A DNA stretch of 62,471 bases, taken from positions 1-62,471 of the forward strand of contig JAGQIK010000560.1 in the NCBI GenBank assembly GCA_020431405.1, written 5' to 3'. Positions 27,840 through 40,003 of this stretch are shown here, piece after piece; the stretch's first letter is position 1, and each line of letters begins with the position of its first letter. The notes beneath the pieces are model-generated. The model was not told the origin of the DNA and ran no database searches. It worked only from the letters and a program-made list of their open reading frames with translations. Origin of the DNA: Myxococcales bacterium (lineage in GTDB: Bacteria > Myxococcota_A > Polyangia > GCA-2747355). Position numbers and translations under genes: made by a program.

Positions 27840-30299
27840 ATGACTGACCTGCCTCAGAGCGCCCGCGTCGTCGTCGTTGGCGGCGGCATCATCGGCTGCT
27901 CCGTCGCCTACCACCTCGGCCACCTCGGCGAGCGCGACGTGCTCGTGCTCGAGCGCGACCAGCTCACGTCGGGGACGACGTGGCACGCCGCCGGCCTGAT
28001 GACGACCTTCGGCTCCACCTCGGAGACCGCGGTCAAGATGCGCATGTACACGCGCGAGCTCTACGCGCGCCTCGAAGCGGAGACCGAGCTCTCCACCGGC
28101 TTCGATCGCCTCGGCTTCATCGAGCTCGCCGCCGACGCTGACCGTCTCGAAGAGTATCGACGCGTCGCCGCGTTCAACCGGCTGATGGAAAACCCGGTCG
28201 AAGAGATCTCGGCGGCCGAGTGCAAGCGCCTCTTTCCGCTCGCCGAGGTCGACGACGTGCTGGCCGGCTTCTACCTGCCGCAGGACGGCCGCGTGAATCC
28301 GGTCGACGCGACGATGGCGCTGGCCAAGGGCGCGCGCCAGCAGGGCGTGCGCTTCGCCTCCGGCGTCTCGCTGACGGGCGTCGTCGCCACCAACGGCCGC
28401 GTCAGCGCGGTGCAGACAGACCAGGGCGAGATCGCCTGCGAGGTGCTCGTCAACTGCGCCGGCATGTGGGCGCGGCAGCTCGGCGCGCGCTCGGGCGTGA
28501 CGATCCCCAACCAGGCTGCCGAGCACTACTACCTCATCACCGAGCCCATCGACGGCGTGACGCGCGAGCTGCCGATCATCGAAGACCCGTCGTCGCACGG
28601 CTACTACCGCGAGGAAGGCGGCGGCCTGATGATCGGCCTCTTCGAGCCGGTGTGCGCGCCGTGGAAGGTCGAAGGCATCCCCGCAGACTTTTCCTTCGGC
28701 GAGATCCCGCCCGACTGGGACCGCATGATGCCGTTTCTCGAGACCGCCATGAATCGCGTGCCGGTCACGCGCGAAGCCGGCATCAAGAAGTTCTTCTGCG
28801 GGCCCGAGAGCTTCACACCCGACATGGGGCCGGCCTTCGGCGAGGCGCCGGAGCTTCGCAACTACTTCGTCTGCGCCGGCATGAACTCGGTGGGCATCAT
28901 CACCGGCGGCGGGCTCGGCCAGGCGCTGGCGCAATGGATCGTCAGCGGCGACCCCGGCGTCGACATCACGCCGATCAACATCGACCGCTTCCACCCCTAC
29001 CAGTGCAACCCCGAGTACCTGCAGACGCGCGTGGTCGAGACGCTCGGGTTGGTCTACGCCTGCCACTACCCGACGCGCTCGCCCAAGACGGCACGCGGCG
29101 CGCGGCGCTCGCCGTTTCACGATCGGCTCGCCGCGCGCGGCGCCTACTTCAAAGACGTCAGCGGCTGGGAGTCACCGGACTGGTACGCGCCCGAGGGACG
29201 CGAGGCCAAGATCGAAAAGCTCTCCTGGGGGCGGCAGCACTGGTTCGACTACTGGCGCGCCGAGCACGAAGCCTGCCGCGAGGGCGTGATCGCGATGGAC
29301 ATGTCGTTCATGTCCAAGTTCTCGGTGGTCGGCCGCGACGCGGGCAAGGTGCTCGACCACATCTCGGCCAACAGCGTCGATGGCCCGTACGAGACGATCA
29401 CTTATACGCAGTGGCTCAACGAGGGCGGCAAGCTCGAAGCTGACCTCACCGTGATGAAGCTCGCGCCCGAGCGTTACATGGTCGTCGCCACCGACACCAT
29501 GCACCGTCACGTCGAGACGTGGCTCGCGCGTCATATCCCGGCCGACGCGCACTGCTTCGCCTCCGACGTCACCAACCGCTTCGGCCAGCTCAACCTGCAG
29601 GGCCCGCGCTCGCGCGAGCTACTCGCCACGCTGACCAGCGCCGACCTCGGCGACGAGGCCTTCCCGTTTCGTACGGCGCGCGAGATCGACATCGGCTTCG
29701 CGCGCGTTTTGTGCGTACGCATCACCTACGTCGGCGAGCTCGGCTACGAGCTCTACATCCCCGCCGAGCACGCCGTGCACGTCTACGACCGCATCGTCGA
29801 GGCAGGCGCCGCGGTCGGGCTGCGGCACGCCGGCCTCAAGGCGCTCTCGAGCCTGCGCATGGAGAAGGCCTACCGCGACTACGGTCACGACATCGACAAC
29901 ACCGACGACCCCTTCGAGGTTGGCCTCGGCTTCGCCGTCGATCTCGACAAGGCCGACTTCATCGGCAAGGCGCCTTGTCTCGAGAAGAAGGCGCAAGGCC
30001 CGGCGTACGATCGGCGCCTGCTGCAGATCCTCGTCAAAGACCCCGAGCCGCTGCTCTATCACGGCGAGGTGATCTACCGCGATGGCGTCGCCGTCGGCTA
30101 CAACCGCGTCGGCTCCTACGGCTTCACCGTCGGCGGCGCGGTGGGCCTGGCGATGATCGAAGCCGGCGAGCCCGTCGACCGCGCCTACATGAAGAACGGC
30201 AGCTGGGAGATCGACATCGCCGGCACGCGCTATCCGCTGAAGGTCGGATTGCCCGCGCGCCCGTTCTACGACCCCAAGATGAAACGCATCAAAGGCTAG
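27840..30299 (+). CDS. FAD-dependent dehydrogenase with GcvT domain (dimethylglycine/sarcosine dehydrogenase-like)
   Basis: An 819-residue two-domain enzyme. The N-terminal FAD domain begins RVVVVGGGIIGCSVAYHL (Rossmann dinucleotide site) and has SGTTWHAAGLM, where the His corresponds to the residue that carries FAD covalently in dimethylglycine dehydrogenase. The FAD-domain end is near GMNSVGIITGGGLGQAL. The C-terminal half is a GcvT/aminomethyltransferase-like folate domain (FGQLNLQGPRSRELL, ITYVGELGYELYIP). Family members oxidatively demethylate dimethylglycine, sarcosine or related N-methyl amines and pass the one-carbon unit to tetrahydrofolate. The exact substrate is uncertain. No electron-transfer flavoprotein gene is nearby. 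Confidence 0.94.
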   Translation: MTDLPQSARVVVVGGGIIGCSVAYHLGHLGERDVLVLERDQLTSGTTWHAAGLMTTFGSTSETAVKMRMYTRELYARLEAETELSTGFDRLGFIELAADADRLEEYRRVAAFNRLMENPVEEISAAECKRLFPLAEVDDVLAGFYLPQDGRVNPVDATMALAKGARQQGVRFASGVSLTGVVATNGRVSAVQTDQGEIACEVLVNCAGMWARQLGARSGVTIPNQAAEHYYLITEPIDGVTRELPIIEDPSSHGYYREEGGGLMIGLFEPVCAPWKVEGIPADFSFGEIPPDWDRMMPFLETAMNRVPVTREAGIKKFFCGPESFTPDMGPAFGEAPELRNYFVCAGMNSVGIITGGGLGQALAQWIVSGDPGVDITPINIDRFHPYQCNPEYLQTRVVETLGLVYACHYPTRSPKTARGARRSPFHDRLAARGAYFKDVSGWESPDWYAPEGREAKIEKLSWGRQHWFDYWRAEHEACREGVIAMDMSFMSKFSVVGRDAGKVLDHISANSVDGPYETITYTQWLNEGGKLEADLTVMKLAPERYMVVATDTMHRHVETWLARHIPADAHCFASDVTNRFGQLNLQGPRSRELLATLTSADLGDEAFPFRTAREIDIGFARVLCVRITYVGELGYELYIPAEHAVHVYDRIVEAGAAVGLRHAGLKALSSLRMEKAYRDYGHDIDNTDDPFEVGLGFAVDLDKADFIGKAPCLEKKAQGPAYDRRLLQILVKDPEPLLYHGEVIYRDGVAVGYNRVGSYGFTVGGAVGLAMIEAGEPVDRAYMKNGSWEIDIAGTRYPLKVGLPARPFYDPKMKRIKG

Positions 30300-30314: not shown

Positions 30315-30791
30315 ATGCCGCCGAAAGCGATAGGCGTGCTGGCGATCGTCTTCGGTGCTTTGGCGCTGCCCGGCACGGTCGTCTGCGCCTACGTTGTCGA
30401 CAACGCCACCACCTGCGCGAAGAAGCCACGCCACGACGCCCGGCGCGACCAGGGCGTAGACCGCTGCAGAAGACGAAGGGCCGTGGCAGAGAAGTGGGCC
30501 ACCTCGATCGGCGGGGCGTGGGCCGCGTTCGGCGTGCTGCTGTTGCTCAGCGGCGTCGGCCTCGTGCGCCGGAAGCGCTGGGGCGTCGTCGTGGGCTACG
30601 CGTGGGCCATCGGCGCGCTCGGCGCGACCGTGGTCTCGCTGGTGCTGCTGATCAAGGACGGTGACGGCGCAGAGGTCCTCTTCGGGGGGCTGGCGCTCGC
30701 CGTCGCACCGGCGCTGATGCTCGTCGCGCTGACGCGCAGAGGCACGCGTGACGCACTCGACGCAGCCGCGGCGCGGCGGTCGAGGCGCTAG
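30315..30791 (+). CDS. Small membrane protein, four predicted helices
   Basis: A 158-residue hydrophobic protein with about four membrane segments: IGVLAIVFGALALPGTVVCAY broken near its end, WAAFGVLLLLSGVGLV, VVVGYAWAIGALGATVVSLV, and LFGGLALAVAPALMLVAL. A basic, Cys-containing loop follows the first helix. It resembles unknown-function membrane proteins common in myxobacteria. It follows the dehydrogenase gene by 15 bp and may be cotranscribed. Its last 4 bp overlap the end of the convergent kinase gene. Confidence 0.75.
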   Translation: MPPKAIGVLAIVFGALALPGTVVCAYVVDNATTCAKKPRHDARRDQGVDRCRRRRAVAEKWATSIGGAWAAFGVLLLLSGVGLVRRKRWGVVVGYAWAIGALGATVVSLVLLIKDGDGAEVLFGGLALAVAPALMLVALTRRGTRDALDAAAARRSRR

Positions 30792-32890
30792 TCAACGAGA
30801 TCGTTGTAGGCCGACGTCTTCACCGCCGAAAAACCGGTGATGGTGAAAGGGTAGACCTCCGACACGGTGCGACCGCGCTTGACGGTGAAGCCGAGCAGCG
30901 CGCGGCGCAGGCGGCTGGTCAGCGACGCGGAGAGCTTCGGCGAGGCGGCGACGACGTCAGAAGGGACCGCGCCGGTGATGGCCAGCACCTGTAGCGTCGC
31001 GCGAGAGATGCCAAGGCGATCGGCGCGCAGGTAGGCCTCGGAGAACACCGCGCCGAGATCGCATCGGCCCGCGACCAGGTCGCGCAGCACCTGCGGGTGC
31101 GTACCCGAGTAGCGCACCGCGCTGAACGACTTGTCGGGATCGATCCCACGCGCGCGCAGGAAGCGTCTCGGCAGCAAATAGCCGCTGGTGGAGCCCTTCT
31201 CGACGTAGCAGACGCGCTTGCCGCGCGCGCTGGCGAGATCGCGCACAGCGCTCGACGCGCGCGCGACCAGATAGCCCTGGCTCGCGCCCTCGTAGCGATG
31301 CGCCGCCAGCGCGCGCACGCGTGCACGTGCGAGGGCGAACTGCAGCGGCGGCAGCGTGGCGAAGTCGAGCTCTCCGCGCAGCAGCGCGCGCCTCAGCGCG
31401 CCGTAGCTCTTCGGCGTGACGACGATGATGCGGCGCCGCAGCACGCGCCGCAGCTGTAGAAGCAGCGGCGCCAGCTCGCGCCGCACCACCTCGGCCTGCA
31501 CCGCCGGAAAGAGGCCGTAGCGCAGCGGCGGCCCGCTGACAGGAGGCAGTGCCGCGCCTCGTGGTTGACGACGCGACGTGGCGGCGACAAAGAAGGCGGC
31601 GACCGCTAGCGCGGCGATGCCCGCGACGGCTCCGACCCGGGCGAGCCACGCGCGGCGCGCGCTCGCAGCTCGCGGCGGTATCGACGCCTCGGCAGACTGC
31701 GCCTCGGCCTCGGCAGGCTGCGCCTCGGCCTCGGCAGGCTGCGCCTCGGTCTGCGCCTCGGCCGCCGTGGGCCGCGGCTCCGCCTGCAGCGTGCGCAGAA
31801 TGTCTGCCACCTCGGCCGCATCCGGACGCGCGTCGGGGTCCTTGTGCAGGCAGCGATCGATCAGCGCCGACAGCGCATCGGGCAGTGGTTCGGGCGCCAC
31901 GCGCGCGATGGGCGGGACGCGCGTGGGGCTCATGACCTCGACCATCAGGCTGCGAACTGTCGGCAGCTCGTCGTAGGGACGATAGCCACAGGCGAGCTGG
32001 TAGAGGATCATGCCGAGCGCCCAGACGTCGGTGGCAGGGCTGACTTGCGTGGCGCGCCACTGCTCGGGCGCCATGTATGTCGGCGTGCCGAAGCAGCCAC
32101 TAGGCGCCACCTCGAGGTCAGCTGCGTCGATGCCGGCGCCCGGCTCGACGGCATCGCCTTCAGCGTGCGGCTCGCGCGCCGCCGTCACCGCGCGCGAGAG
32201 CCCGAAGTCGAGCACGCGCAGACGACCACCGGCGTCGATCATCACGTTGCTCGGCTTGAGGTCGCGGTGCAGAACGCCGCGCCGGTGCGCTTCGGCGAGC
32301 GCCTCGGCGATGGGCATGCCAAGCTGCACCGTGCGCTCGACGCTCGGCGGGCGCCGCGACATCAGCTGCGCGAGCGTCTCGCCGTGCAGATACTCGAGGG
32401 CCATGTAGGGCTGACCCTCGTGCTCGCCCACGGCGTGGATCGCCACGATGTGCGGATGGCTGAAACGCGCCGTCGTGCGCGCCTCCTCCATGAAGCGGTC
32501 GTAGGCCTCGGGCGTCGTCAGAAGCTCCGCCGAGATCAGCTTCAGCGCCACCGAGCGCTCGAGCTTGCTGTCGCGGGCCAGATAGACCTCGCCCATGCCG
32601 CCGCGCCCGATCAACCGCTGCACCACGAAGTTGTCGACGCGCGCGCCCGGCTCGAGCGCTCGGCGACGCCGCCCAGGCGGCCTGCGCGCCACGGATTTGA
32701 TCGTCGGCGGCGCGTCGTCGATGGCGGCAGCGCCCGCTTCGCTCGCCGGCCGCGCGATGACCAGCGCCGCCAGCAGCTGGCGACACGGCTCGCAGGCGTC
32801 GATGTGCTCGTCGAGCGCGCGCACCTCGTCGTCCGAGAGCTGCCCCTCGAGCATGCGCTGCAGCGTGCTGTCGTCGGGGTGCTCCGTCAT
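30788..32890 (-). CDS. Membrane Ser/Thr protein kinase with anti-sigma-type zinc finger and PhnD-like binding domain
   Basis: A 700-residue fusion. Residues 1-45 form a zf-HC2/anti-sigma zinc finger (H29-x3-C33-x2-C36 in HIDACEPC). Residues 88-370 form a complete Hanks-type kinase: glycine loop GRGGMG 95-100, Lys117, HRDLKPSN 208-215, DFG 228-230, APE 274-276. A repetitive AEAQP linker (375-400) leads to one membrane helix (415-437). The C-terminal 245 residues match the PhnD phosphate/phosphonate periplasmic-binding fold (LRYGLFPAVQ, GELDFATLP, KRVCYVEKGSTSGYLLP, GRCDLGAVF). The predicted topology is kinase inside, binding domain in the periplasm. It is divergent from a sigma factor, with 16 bp between starts, so I infer a ligand-gated kinase/sigma circuit. 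Confidence 0.93.
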   Translation of the reverse strand: MTEHPDDSTLQRMLEGQLSDDEVRALDEHIDACEPCRQLLAALVIARPASEAGAAAIDDAPPTIKSVARRPPGRRRRALEPGARVDNFVVQRLIGRGGMGEVYLARDSKLERSVALKLISAELLTTPEAYDRFMEEARTTARFSHPHIVAIHAVGEHEGQPYMALEYLHGETLAQLMSRRPPSVERTVQLGMPIAEALAEAHRRGVLHRDLKPSNVMIDAGGRLRVLDFGLSRAVTAAREPHAEGDAVEPGAGIDAADLEVAPSGCFGTPTYMAPEQWRATQVSPATDVWALGMILYQLACGYRPYDELPTVRSLMVEVMSPTRVPPIARVAPEPLPDALSALIDRCLHKDPDARPDAAEVADILRTLQAEPRPTAAEAQTEAQPAEAEAQPAEAEAQSAEASIPPRAASARRAWLARVGAVAGIAALAVAAFFVAATSRRQPRGAALPPVSGPPLRYGLFPAVQAEVVRRELAPLLLQLRRVLRRRIIVVTPKSYGALRRALLRGELDFATLPPLQFALARARVRALAAHRYEGASQGYLVARASSAVRDLASARGKRVCYVEKGSTSGYLLPRRFLRARGIDPDKSFSAVRYSGTHPQVLRDLVAGRCDLGAVFSEAYLRADRLGISRATLQVLAITGAVPSDVVAASPKLSASLTSRLRRALLGFTVKRGRTVSEVYPFTITGFSAVKTSAYNDLVD
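31687..31760. repeat. Tandem 21-bp-type repeats in kinase linker
   Basis: Short tandem units built on GCCTCGGCAGGCTGC encode the AEAQPAE repeats of the juxtamembrane linker in the Ser/Thr kinase. The copies differ by single bases. Confidence 0.7.
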
Positions 32891-32906
32891 GCAATCCTAG
32901 TTTCGC
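32891..32906. promoter_or_regulatory. 16-bp divergent start region between kinase and sigma factor
   Basis: Only 16 bp (GCAATCCTAGTTTCGC) separate the two start codons. Both strands show a TAGNNT-like hexamer 3 nt from the ATG (TAGTTT plus, TAGGAT minus). There is no room for two conventional promoters, so control elements must extend into both coding regions or the real starts lie further in. Confidence 0.4.
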
Positions 32907-33755
32907 ATGGGTCATCCGCCCGACGAGCCACCGACGATAACCGAGCGCCTGCGCGCCGCGCGCGCACGCTGGCCCGACGTCTCCGTCGATGACGATCACT
33001 TCGCACGCTACCTCGCGGCGCGCGCCGGCGACGACCTCTCCATCGACGCGCTCAACACTGACGATCTATACCTGGCCTGCGCTTGCGCCGCCGGCGACGA
33101 CGCCGCGCTGCGCACCTTCGAGCGCGAGCTGCTGCCGACCATCGACGGCGCGCTGCGCCGCATGAGCCTCGCCCCGTCTATCGCCGACGACGTCAAACAA
33201 TCGCTGCGCACGCAGCTGTTCGTCGCGGCGGCCGGCGACGAGCCCGGCATCACCAAATACAGCGGCCGCGGCGATCTGCGCGGCTGGCTGCGCGTCACCG
33301 CCGTGCGCGCGGCGCTCAAGGCGCTGCGCCCCTACCGCCGCGCGCCCGACTTCGACGACGACGAGCTGCTGCTCGAGGTCGCCGACGATCAGACCGATCC
33401 CGAGCTGGCCCACGTCAAGCGCGTCTACCGCGGCCAGCTCAAGCACGCCGTCGCCGCCGCCTGCGCCAAGCTGAGCGCGCGCGAGCGCAACCTGCTGCGC
33501 CTGAGCACCATCGACCAGCTCAGCATCGACCAGATCGGCGAGCTCTATCGCGTGCACCGCGCCACCAGCGCGCGCTGGCTCAACCGCGCGCGCGAGCGAC
33601 TGGTGGTATTGACGCGCGAGCTGCTCGAGGCGCAGCTTCGACTCTCGCGCACCGAGCAGCAGCACGTCGTCGCGCTGGTGCGCAGCCAGCTCGACCTGTC
33701 GCTGCCACGCGTGCTCAGCGCCGGCGACAAAGACGAGCCGTCAGCGGGCGAATGA
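32907..33755 (+). CDS. Sigma-70 family RNA polymerase sigma factor paired with Ser/Thr kinase
   Basis: A 282-residue ECF-like sigma factor, longer than usual because of an N-terminal extension of about 50 residues and a C-terminal tail. Region 2 is around residues 65-145 (GDDAALRTFERELLP, IADDVKQSLRTQLF, GDLRGWLRVTAVRAALKALR). Region 4 is around 180-240 (LSARERNLLRLSTIDQLSID, then QIGELYRVHRATSARWLNRA). The type resembles sigma factors encoded beside protein kinases in Myxococcota and Planctomycetes. The divergent kinase has an anti-sigma-like zinc finger and could hold or phosphorylate this factor. The 3' end overlaps the convergent small lipoprotein gene by 15 bp. Confidence 0.88.
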   Translation: MGHPPDEPPTITERLRAARARWPDVSVDDDHFARYLAARAGDDLSIDALNTDDLYLACACAAGDDAALRTFERELLPTIDGALRRMSLAPSIADDVKQSLRTQLFVAAAGDEPGITKYSGRGDLRGWLRVTAVRAALKALRPYRRAPDFDDDELLLEVADDQTDPELAHVKRVYRGQLKHAVAAACAKLSARERNLLRLSTIDQLSIDQIGELYRVHRATSARWLNRARERLVVLTRELLEAQLRLSRTEQQHVVALVRSQLDLSLPRVLSAGDKDEPSAGE

Positions 33756-34317: not shown

Positions 34318-36051
34318 ATGGAGCACCAGGTCCCGCAGCAAGATAAGGCCATCGAAGAGATCCTCCGCGCCGAGCGCGCTCGGCTCGAAGCCGAGGCGGG
34401 CCTCGATAAGAAGGTCGAGCACTTCAAGCGCCCCACCGAGCACAAGTTCACCGCCGCGCAGCGCCCGCACACCACGATCCTCGTCGGCGGCCTGTCGCTG
34501 CGTCACGACATCCTGATCTCCGCCGCCTGGCGCGGCCTCGGATACAACATCGAGCAGGTCCACGTGCCGACCAAAGCCGACTTTCAAGCCGGCAAGGAGT
34601 ACGGCAACAACGGCCAGTGCAACCCGACCTACTTCACCGTCGGCGCGCTGGTGAACTACCTCAAGAACCTGCGCGACAACGAGGGCATGTCCTCCGAGTA
34701 CATCGTCAACAACTACGTGTTCATGACGGCCGGCGCGTGTGGTCCCTGCCGCTTCGGTATGTACGAAGCGGAGTTTCGCCTGGCGCTGCGCAACTCGGGC
34801 TTCGAAGGCTTCCGCGTGCTGCTGTTCCAGCAGTCGGGCGGGCTCGACCAAGCCAGCGGCGACGACGGCCTACAGATGAACCTCGAGTTCTTCTTCGGCC
34901 TGGTCAACGGCATCCTCATCGGCGATCTGCTCAACGAGGTCTACCACCAGGTGCGGCCCTTCGAGACGGCGCCCGGACAGACCGACGCCCTCTACCAGAA
35001 GCTGATGGCGCACTGCTGCAAGTACATGCAGCACAAGCAGTACGCCAAGAAGGGCGGCATCCTCGCGCAGGCGCTCGCCAAGATCGCGCCGCTCAAGGAC
35101 GACGCCGAGGCCGAGAAGTTCCTCGATCAGCTCTTTGGCGACTACTACACCAAGATGCTCGAAGAGTGCGTCGAGATCGCCAATCGCGAGATGGTGGTCG
35201 ACTACACCCAGCCCAAGCCGATCGTGAAGATCACCGGCGAGTTCTGGGCGCAGACCACCGAGGGCGACGGCAACTTCAACATGTTCCCGTTCCTCGAGAA
35301 CGAGGGCGCGGAGATCATCGTCGAGCCGGTCGTCACCTGGCTCAACTACCTGCTGCACCAGGCGCGGCTGTTCGTCAAAGACAAGCGCGGCCTCAACGAG
35401 GGCGGCGAGCCGATCAAGAGCTGGGATCTGATGGGCCGCCTCAAGCGCGAGGTCGAGTACCGCAAGAACCACCTGCTGCTCACCGTCGCCGAGAAGATCA
35501 TCCTGCGCGAGTACGAGCGACTGCGCCTCGCCTTCGGCGGCACCGCGCACAAGCCGGTCAACCAGCTCGAGCTCGAGCGCATGGGCCACCCGTTCTACAA
35601 CACGCGCTCGGGCGGCGGCGAAGGCCACCTCGAAGTCGCGAAGAACATCTACTACTCGACCAAGGGCATGGCGCACATGGTGCTCTCGGTCAAACCGTTT
35701 GGCTGCATGCCCTCGACGCAGTCTGACGGCGCGCAAGCGGCGGTCATCAGCCACTACCCCGACATGATCTATCTGCCCATCGAGACGTCGGGCGAGGGCG
35801 ACATCAACGCCCACAGCCGCACGCAGATGGCGCTCGGCGAGGCCAAGGTCAAAGCCAAGGCCGAGTTCAAGGACGTGCTCGAGCGCACTGGCAAGTCCAT
35901 CGAAGACATCCGCGCCTACGTCGACAAGCACCCCGAGCTGCGTCGTCCGATCCAGACGATGCCGCACTACGAGGGTGTCGTCGGACGCGCGGCCAACTTC
36001 GTGCTGCACGTCAGCGAGCTGATGGACGCCGATCCGGCCTACGCAAACTAG
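34318..36051 (+). CDS. 2-hydroxyacyl-CoA dehydratase-like protein (HgdB/BadF-associated)
   Basis: A 577-residue cytoplasmic protein related to the 2-hydroxyglutaryl-CoA-dehydratase-type proteins that accompany BadF-like activases. Conserved cysteine contexts are NGQCNPTYFTVG, MTAGACGPCRFGMYEAEF and KPFGCMPSTQSDG, candidate ligands for an iron-sulfur cluster. It has no signal peptide. GAGGAG lies about 8 nt before ATG. It is followed after 10 bp by the giant activase gene, with which it should form an ATP-driven radical/reduction system. The substrate is not known; related pairs occur in many bacteria without a characterised pathway. Confidence 0.87.
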   Translation: MEHQVPQQDKAIEEILRAERARLEAEAGLDKKVEHFKRPTEHKFTAAQRPHTTILVGGLSLRHDILISAAWRGLGYNIEQVHVPTKADFQAGKEYGNNGQCNPTYFTVGALVNYLKNLRDNEGMSSEYIVNNYVFMTAGACGPCRFGMYEAEFRLALRNSGFEGFRVLLFQQSGGLDQASGDDGLQMNLEFFFGLVNGILIGDLLNEVYHQVRPFETAPGQTDALYQKLMAHCCKYMQHKQYAKKGGILAQALAKIAPLKDDAEAEKFLDQLFGDYYTKMLEECVEIANREMVVDYTQPKPIVKITGEFWAQTTEGDGNFNMFPFLENEGAEIIVEPVVTWLNYLLHQARLFVKDKRGLNEGGEPIKSWDLMGRLKREVEYRKNHLLLTVAEKIILREYERLRLAFGGTAHKPVNQLELERMGHPFYNTRSGGGEGHLEVAKNIYYSTKGMAHMVLSVKPFGCMPSTQSDGAQAAVISHYPDMIYLPIETSGEGDINAHSRTQMALGEAKVKAKAEFKDVLERTGKSIEDIRAYVDKHPELRRPIQTMPHYEGVVGRAANFVLHVSELMDADPAYAN

Positions 36052-36061
36052 AGGTTCTGCT

Positions 36062-40003
<3,942 letters not shown>

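Follow-up and report, generated by a model that had tools for sequence, protein, structure and literature searches.

How a chemical signal outside the cell might be passed to a sigma factor through a single membrane protein is the question raised by a divergent gene pair in the window, that is, the whole 62,471-nucleotide stretch of Myxococcales contig JAGQIK010000560.1 that was analysed. On the reverse strand, positions 30788..32890 encode P0001, a 700-aa protein joining a zinc finger, a Ser-Thr kinase, a transmembrane helix and a PhnD-type sensor (open reading frame and Pfam). On the forward strand, positions 32907..33755 encode P0002, a 282-aa sigma factor of family TIGR03001 (Sig-70_gmx1), assigned by open reading frame and profile match. 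The two ATG codons lie head to head, separated by 16 bp (32891..32906), and an earlier sequence-only reading that proposed this arrangement had placed both reading frames exactly. The spacing is firm, since the first 66 codons of P0002 contain no alternative in-frame ATG, GTG or TTG, and the first ATG of P0001 is required for the zinc ligand H4. An AGGA Shine-Dalgarno-like stretch precedes the P0001 ATG; inspection of the 16-bp gap ahead of the P0002 ATG found no evident stretch of this kind. The gap is too small for two separate promoters, so the promoters would lie inside the coding sequence of the opposite gene, or one transcript would be leaderless.

The N-terminal part of P0001 carries an anti-sigma-type zinc finger (aa 1-45; 32756..32890, reverse strand), recognized by Pfam and by a model of paralogous fingers. 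The zf-HC2 profile (PF13490) matches aa 14-37 with an E-value of 1.8e-4 and 21.9 bits, slightly below the 22.2-bit cut-off, and the paralogue model matches with an E-value of 5e-19, the P0001 finger being one of its eight rows. The predicted finger is secured by this model together with the ligands H4, H29, C33 and C36, the first of which is Cys in most relatives. The Hx3Cx2C motif defines zinc-binding class I anti-sigma domains (PMC7406223). P0001 has the H...Hx3Cx2C pattern and, in its structure model, a predicted three-helix bundle (aa 7-14, 20-32 and 34-45; pLDDT of the block about 64-77), as expected for this class. In class I anti-sigma domains, which bind their sigma and inhibit it, helix 1 contacts sigma-4 and helix 4 contacts sigma-2; no evident fourth helix of the sigma-2-binding kind was seen in the modelled stretch between the P0001 finger and kinase.

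The finger is followed by a Hanks-type kinase domain (aa 89-361; 31808..32626, reverse strand), supported by Pfam, alignment and fold match. PF00069 matches with an E-value of 8e-48, all catalytic motifs are intact (G95-x-G97, K117, H208-R-D210, D228-F-G230), and the nearest solved folds are PknA and PknB (Z 30-31). The full-length structure prediction, which used 4 sequences, is good in the kinase part and poor in the PhnD part (mean pLDDT 54). By hydropathy there is a single transmembrane helix (aa 419-437; 31580..31636, reverse strand) with a mean of 2.43, against 1.48 for the next best stretch elsewhere in the protein, and it is preceded by a linker rich in Ala, Glu, Gln and Pro (about aa 373-405). 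The finger, intact kinase and lone helix described in the sequence-only reading were thus all recovered.

The C-terminal PhnD-type periplasmic binding domain (aa 459-695; 30806..31516, reverse strand; Pfam, alignment and fold match) matches Phosphonate-bd PF12974 with an E-value of 4e-47 over profile positions 2-242 of 242. When the domain was predicted alone (mean pLDDT 62) and this model used for a fold search, PtxB, PhnD, ArrX and AioX were the best matches, with Z of 10.8-11.8 over 195-216 residues and an rmsd >10 that probably reflects mis-set lobes in a model of modest confidence. The binding fold anticipated from the sequence was therefore found, and P0001 keeps most of the oxyanion contacts of PtxB (Y496, S567-T568-S569 and H598), including the Ser-Thr-Ser plus His motif that holds the oxyanion in both PtxB and PhnD. 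The claim that the domain is complete stands for the fold but not for the hinge, where the Tyr of most characterized relatives has been lost through a 2-aa deletion after S537; the hinge position is also non-Tyr in Pm_PhnD (Phe). A phosphite-specific PtxB identity was rejected: D645 and A463 stand where PtxB has its capping Tyr and the partner Asp, an arrangement similar to that of E. coli PhnD with its large pocket (D205/T14). Given this replacement and the missing hinge Tyr, a substituted oxyanion, phosphonate-like or other, is likelier than phosphite, and the residues of the site suggest that P0001 would bind an oxyanion or phosphonate-like ligand outside the cell. As had been noted before, ABC transporter genes are lacking: none of the nine annotated neighbours of the pair is a transport or phosphonate gene.

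P0002 matches TIGR03001 over model positions 4-244 of 244 with 223 bits (curated cut-off 154.6), which bears out the proposal of a sigma factor beside the kinase gene. Its closest relative, at 45% identity in genome G052, is divergent from a finger-kinase gene without a PhnD domain. A literature search found no mention of TIGR03001. Ser/Thr positions conserved in the gmx1 family correspond to residues 220, 236, 260 and 265 of P0002, and the C-terminal extension holds three of these. Assignment of P0002 to the ECF43-type sigmas, in which the acidic DAED patch is lost, was rejected: its region 2.2 reads A-D94-D95-V, and these conserved acidic positions are retained.

Myxobacteria and their relatives carry very many Ser/Thr kinases and ECF sigmas, most without known inputs or targets. 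Profile searches of the source genome (11.2 Mb, 96% complete) returned nine sigmas above the TIGR03001 cut-off and nine strong finger-model matches. Eight of the nine sigmas adjoin a finger gene (seven with a recognizable kinase), and eight of the nine finger genes adjoin a gmx1 sigma, the two being adjacent or within about 2 kb on contigs C134, C247, C363 (the present locus), C424, C441, C517, C603 and C624. The unpaired members are a sigma on C686 and a finger-kinase on C128. Under random placement, eight neighbouring pairs would have a chance of about 6e-19. Across the class, a neighbour within 2.5 kb encodes a finger, a kinase or both at 37 of 49 gmx1 loci (26 divergent, 9 tandem, 2 convergent), in a non-random sample of mostly best-scoring loci from the source genome and 21 relatives. 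As a control, 19 other ECF-like sigma loci in the source genome had a kinase within about 1.5 kb in no case; weak finger matches occurred at six of them. Because the pairing is near one-to-one in genome and class, far beyond chance, functional coupling of P0001 to its neighbouring sigma is well supported by comparative sequence evidence, in line with the one-protein transmembrane sensor proposed earlier, and every gmx1 sigma gains a predicted dedicated partner. Mirror-tree correlations of r = 0.17 (sigma against kinase) and r = 0.15 (sigma against finger) did not exceed within-genome permutations; the assay had no power, since its finger-versus-kinase positive control failed too.

P0001 and P0002 share sigma family, gene order, finger and kinase with the other divergent TIGR03001 pairs of Myxococcota. 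They differ in the C-terminal domain, where the other gmx1-linked finger-kinases examined carry PEGA, nSTAND, nSTAND plus WD40, TPR or nothing recognized. This domain is exchangeable; the finger protein on C134 even keeps its finger and nSTAND domain with no recognizable kinase. The linked sigma was earlier thought unusual, but a finger or finger-kinase neighbour is the rule for gmx1 sigmas. The kinase fusion is not unusual in itself, as kinase-PhnD fusions form a large Myxococcota family: four more kinase-TM-PhnD proteins are encoded in the source genome and many in other Myxococcota genomes. These share the kinase, TM and PhnD layout of P0001, while their kinase is of a different lineage, and neither a finger nor a nearby gmx1 sigma was found for the 44 other fusions examined. 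The rarity lies in the combination of finger-kinase, PhnD domain and gmx1 sigma, each half being known or widespread.

The two halves of P0001 have separate affinities. In the kinase tree P0001 falls inside the sigma-linked finger-kinases (a 7-row set, SH-aLRT 99), and an AU test rejects grouping it with the PhnD-kinases (p = 7e-5). In the PhnD tree its domain groups among the PhnD domains that are fused to kinases. It is closest to those from its own family and order, a smaller set with moderate support (87-92). With the kinase from one group and the PhnD domain from the other, P0001 is a chimera, and on these trees it is best read as a sensor swap, in which a finger-kinase module received the PhnD sensor of another receptor-kinase family. 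Two scans of named genomes were run, the first yielding nothing and the second one new relevant locus. The same architecture is present in one other sampled genome, at locus L191 (JAJRTE010000022.1) of the deep-sea-type Myxococcota MAG Dive96_bin1.27; a strict full-length search of 318 class and 379 phylum genomes, with 2-3 candidates per genome scored, returned P0001 and L191 only. L191 is the sister of P0001 in both trees (88-92) and retains the finger. The two PhnD domains have in common the 2-aa loss that follows S537 and, close to their ends, a 2-aa gain (YPFTIT / YPYTIT). The L191 genome (94% complete) holds no gmx1 sigma above the TIGR03001 cut-off, so a receptor of this architecture can exist without a gmx1 partner. 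This could have come about by horizontal transfer of the receptor gene alone or by subsequent loss of the sigma. The gene pair is conserved in relatives as a sigma/finger-kinase module, but not with its PhnD sensor.

We consider it moderately probable that P0001 is a ligand-gated finger-kinase receptor controlling its gmx1 sigma. P0001 would make a single pass through the inner membrane, its PhnD-type domain facing outwards and its kinase and finger facing the cell interior, and the finger would dock on or sequester P0002. When an external oxyanion or phosphonate-like ligand binds, the PhnD clamshell would close and the activity of the kinase would change; P0002 may then be freed or activated through a phosphorylation event in the finger region, in the linker or on the sigma. 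Two findings speak against this model: the L191 receptor occurs in a genome with no gmx1 sigma above the cut-off, and the P0001 model shows no evident fourth helix ahead of the kinase. The main rival to a finger that holds the sigma is direct activating phosphorylation. Here the kinase would activate the sigma itself, and the finger would serve docking or structure and never inhibit. Phosphorylation-activated ECF sigmas beside kinases are already known: in PknT-EcfP and PknS-EcfK of group ECF43 the kinase activates the sigma by phosphorylation (PMC8999054, PMC8103513), which supplies the charge of the acidic DAED patch that these sigmas lack in region 2.2 (PMC8103513, PMC8999054). P0002 likewise has a dedicated neighbouring Ser/Thr kinase, and the conserved Ser/Thr residues of the gmx1 family could offer target sites. 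However, the acidic patch missing from ECF43 is present in P0002, and the D94 and D95 positions are acidic in 78% and 100% of 49 gmx1 sigmas, so the exact ECF43 mechanism is unneeded. Reviews covering the ECF43 pairs mention no anti-sigma finger on the kinase (PMC8999054, PMC8103513), a difference from P0001. We regard direct activation as rather unlikely and prefer a sigma-holding finger with a ligand-gated kinase, since the acidic region 2.2 needs no charge supplied by phosphorylation.

The chimeric origin of P0001 also lends something to a different view, namely that it is a free-standing phosphonate or oxyanion receptor kinase with targets elsewhere, whose finger and sigma are inherited leftovers that are no longer relevant. 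The L191 protein, with its finger and no gmx1 sigma in its genome, and the 44 fusions with neither finger nor sigma nearby would fit such a receptor. Against this, P0001 retains all four zinc ligands and its head-to-head sigma, like the other paired modules of the source genome, and we think the leftover scenario quite improbable. A broader proposal, which we put forward tentatively as somewhat short of an even prospect, is that gmx1/finger-kinase pairs form a lineage-wide signalling system in which a single polypeptide with interchangeable sensors unites two normally separate mechanisms, sequestration of the anti-sigma kind and Ser/Thr phosphorylation, and that P0001 gained a ligand-gated outside receptor through the PhnD swap. 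Since this pair also comes with a predicted type of external ligand, input (the ligand), transducer (kinase and finger) and output (the sigma regulon) can be tested jointly, and the pair could reveal whether one protein serves as both anti-sigma factor and kinase switch.

A literature search for links between PhnD domains, kinases and sigma factors found nothing relevant. AioX and ArrX are PhnD-family proteins in a signalling-sensor role (PMC5908839), and both rank near the top when the P0001 domain is compared by fold and by sequence. They are separate proteins that act on the histidine kinases AioS and ArrS, whereas P0001 has its sensor fused to a Ser/Thr kinase. The arsenite-binding Cys106 has been reported as AioX-specific (PMC5908839). 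P0001 has a Cys pair of its own, C561 and C610, in common with the Myxococcota kinase-PhnD fusions. Each of these positions is Cys in 43 of 49 kinase-fused PhnD domains and rarely so outside kinase fusions (2 of 27 other PhnD domains for each), and the two residues probably form a disulfide.

Cysteines C561 and C610 of the window kinase protein lie at positions that are each filled by cysteine in 43 of 49 kinase-fused PhnD domains, and each in 2 of 27 PhnD domains that stand alone or are otherwise fused. The kinase-fused domains concerned are the window domain (30806-31516) and those of the kinase-PhnD loci L046-L049, L087-L099, L132-L150 and L196-L210. The two residues likely form a disulfide, and the pair is likely a marker of the kinase-fused PhnD family. 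Ahead of the membrane helix of the window protein, imperfect AEAQPAE-type repeats build the linker (aa 373-405), possibly a region of variable length.

An ortholog of this chimeric protein is found in a Myxococcota MAG from another class (L191; JAJRTE010000022.1, 3519-5831), the genome of which contains no gmx1 sigma factor over the family cut-off; horizontal transfer of the receptor alone is a possible explanation. In the genome of the window (G000), a gmx1 sigma partner on contig C134 (L037:2420-4342) carries the finger and an nSTAND domain without a recognisable kinase domain. This partner is possibly a degenerate kinase, in which case the finger role and the kinase role would become separable. 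The only G000 finger-kinase without an adjoining gmx1 sigma gene (C128, L229) and the only gmx1 sigma without a finger-kinase (C686, L043) may be a split pair.

Around the window pair, a gene for a probable membrane protein (30315-30791, +; 158 aa, no Pfam match) converges on the kinase gene and overlaps its 3′ end by 4 bp. The nearby gene for a dimethylglycine/sarcosine dehydrogenase-like protein (27840-30299, +; DAO, FAO_M and GCV_T) has no evident connection to the sensor. A 577-aa protein without a Pfam match (34318-36051, +) and, after it, a BadF/BcrA-type activase of 1313 aa that contains DUF2229 (36062-40003, +) are probably a CoA-dehydratase/activase-like pair.
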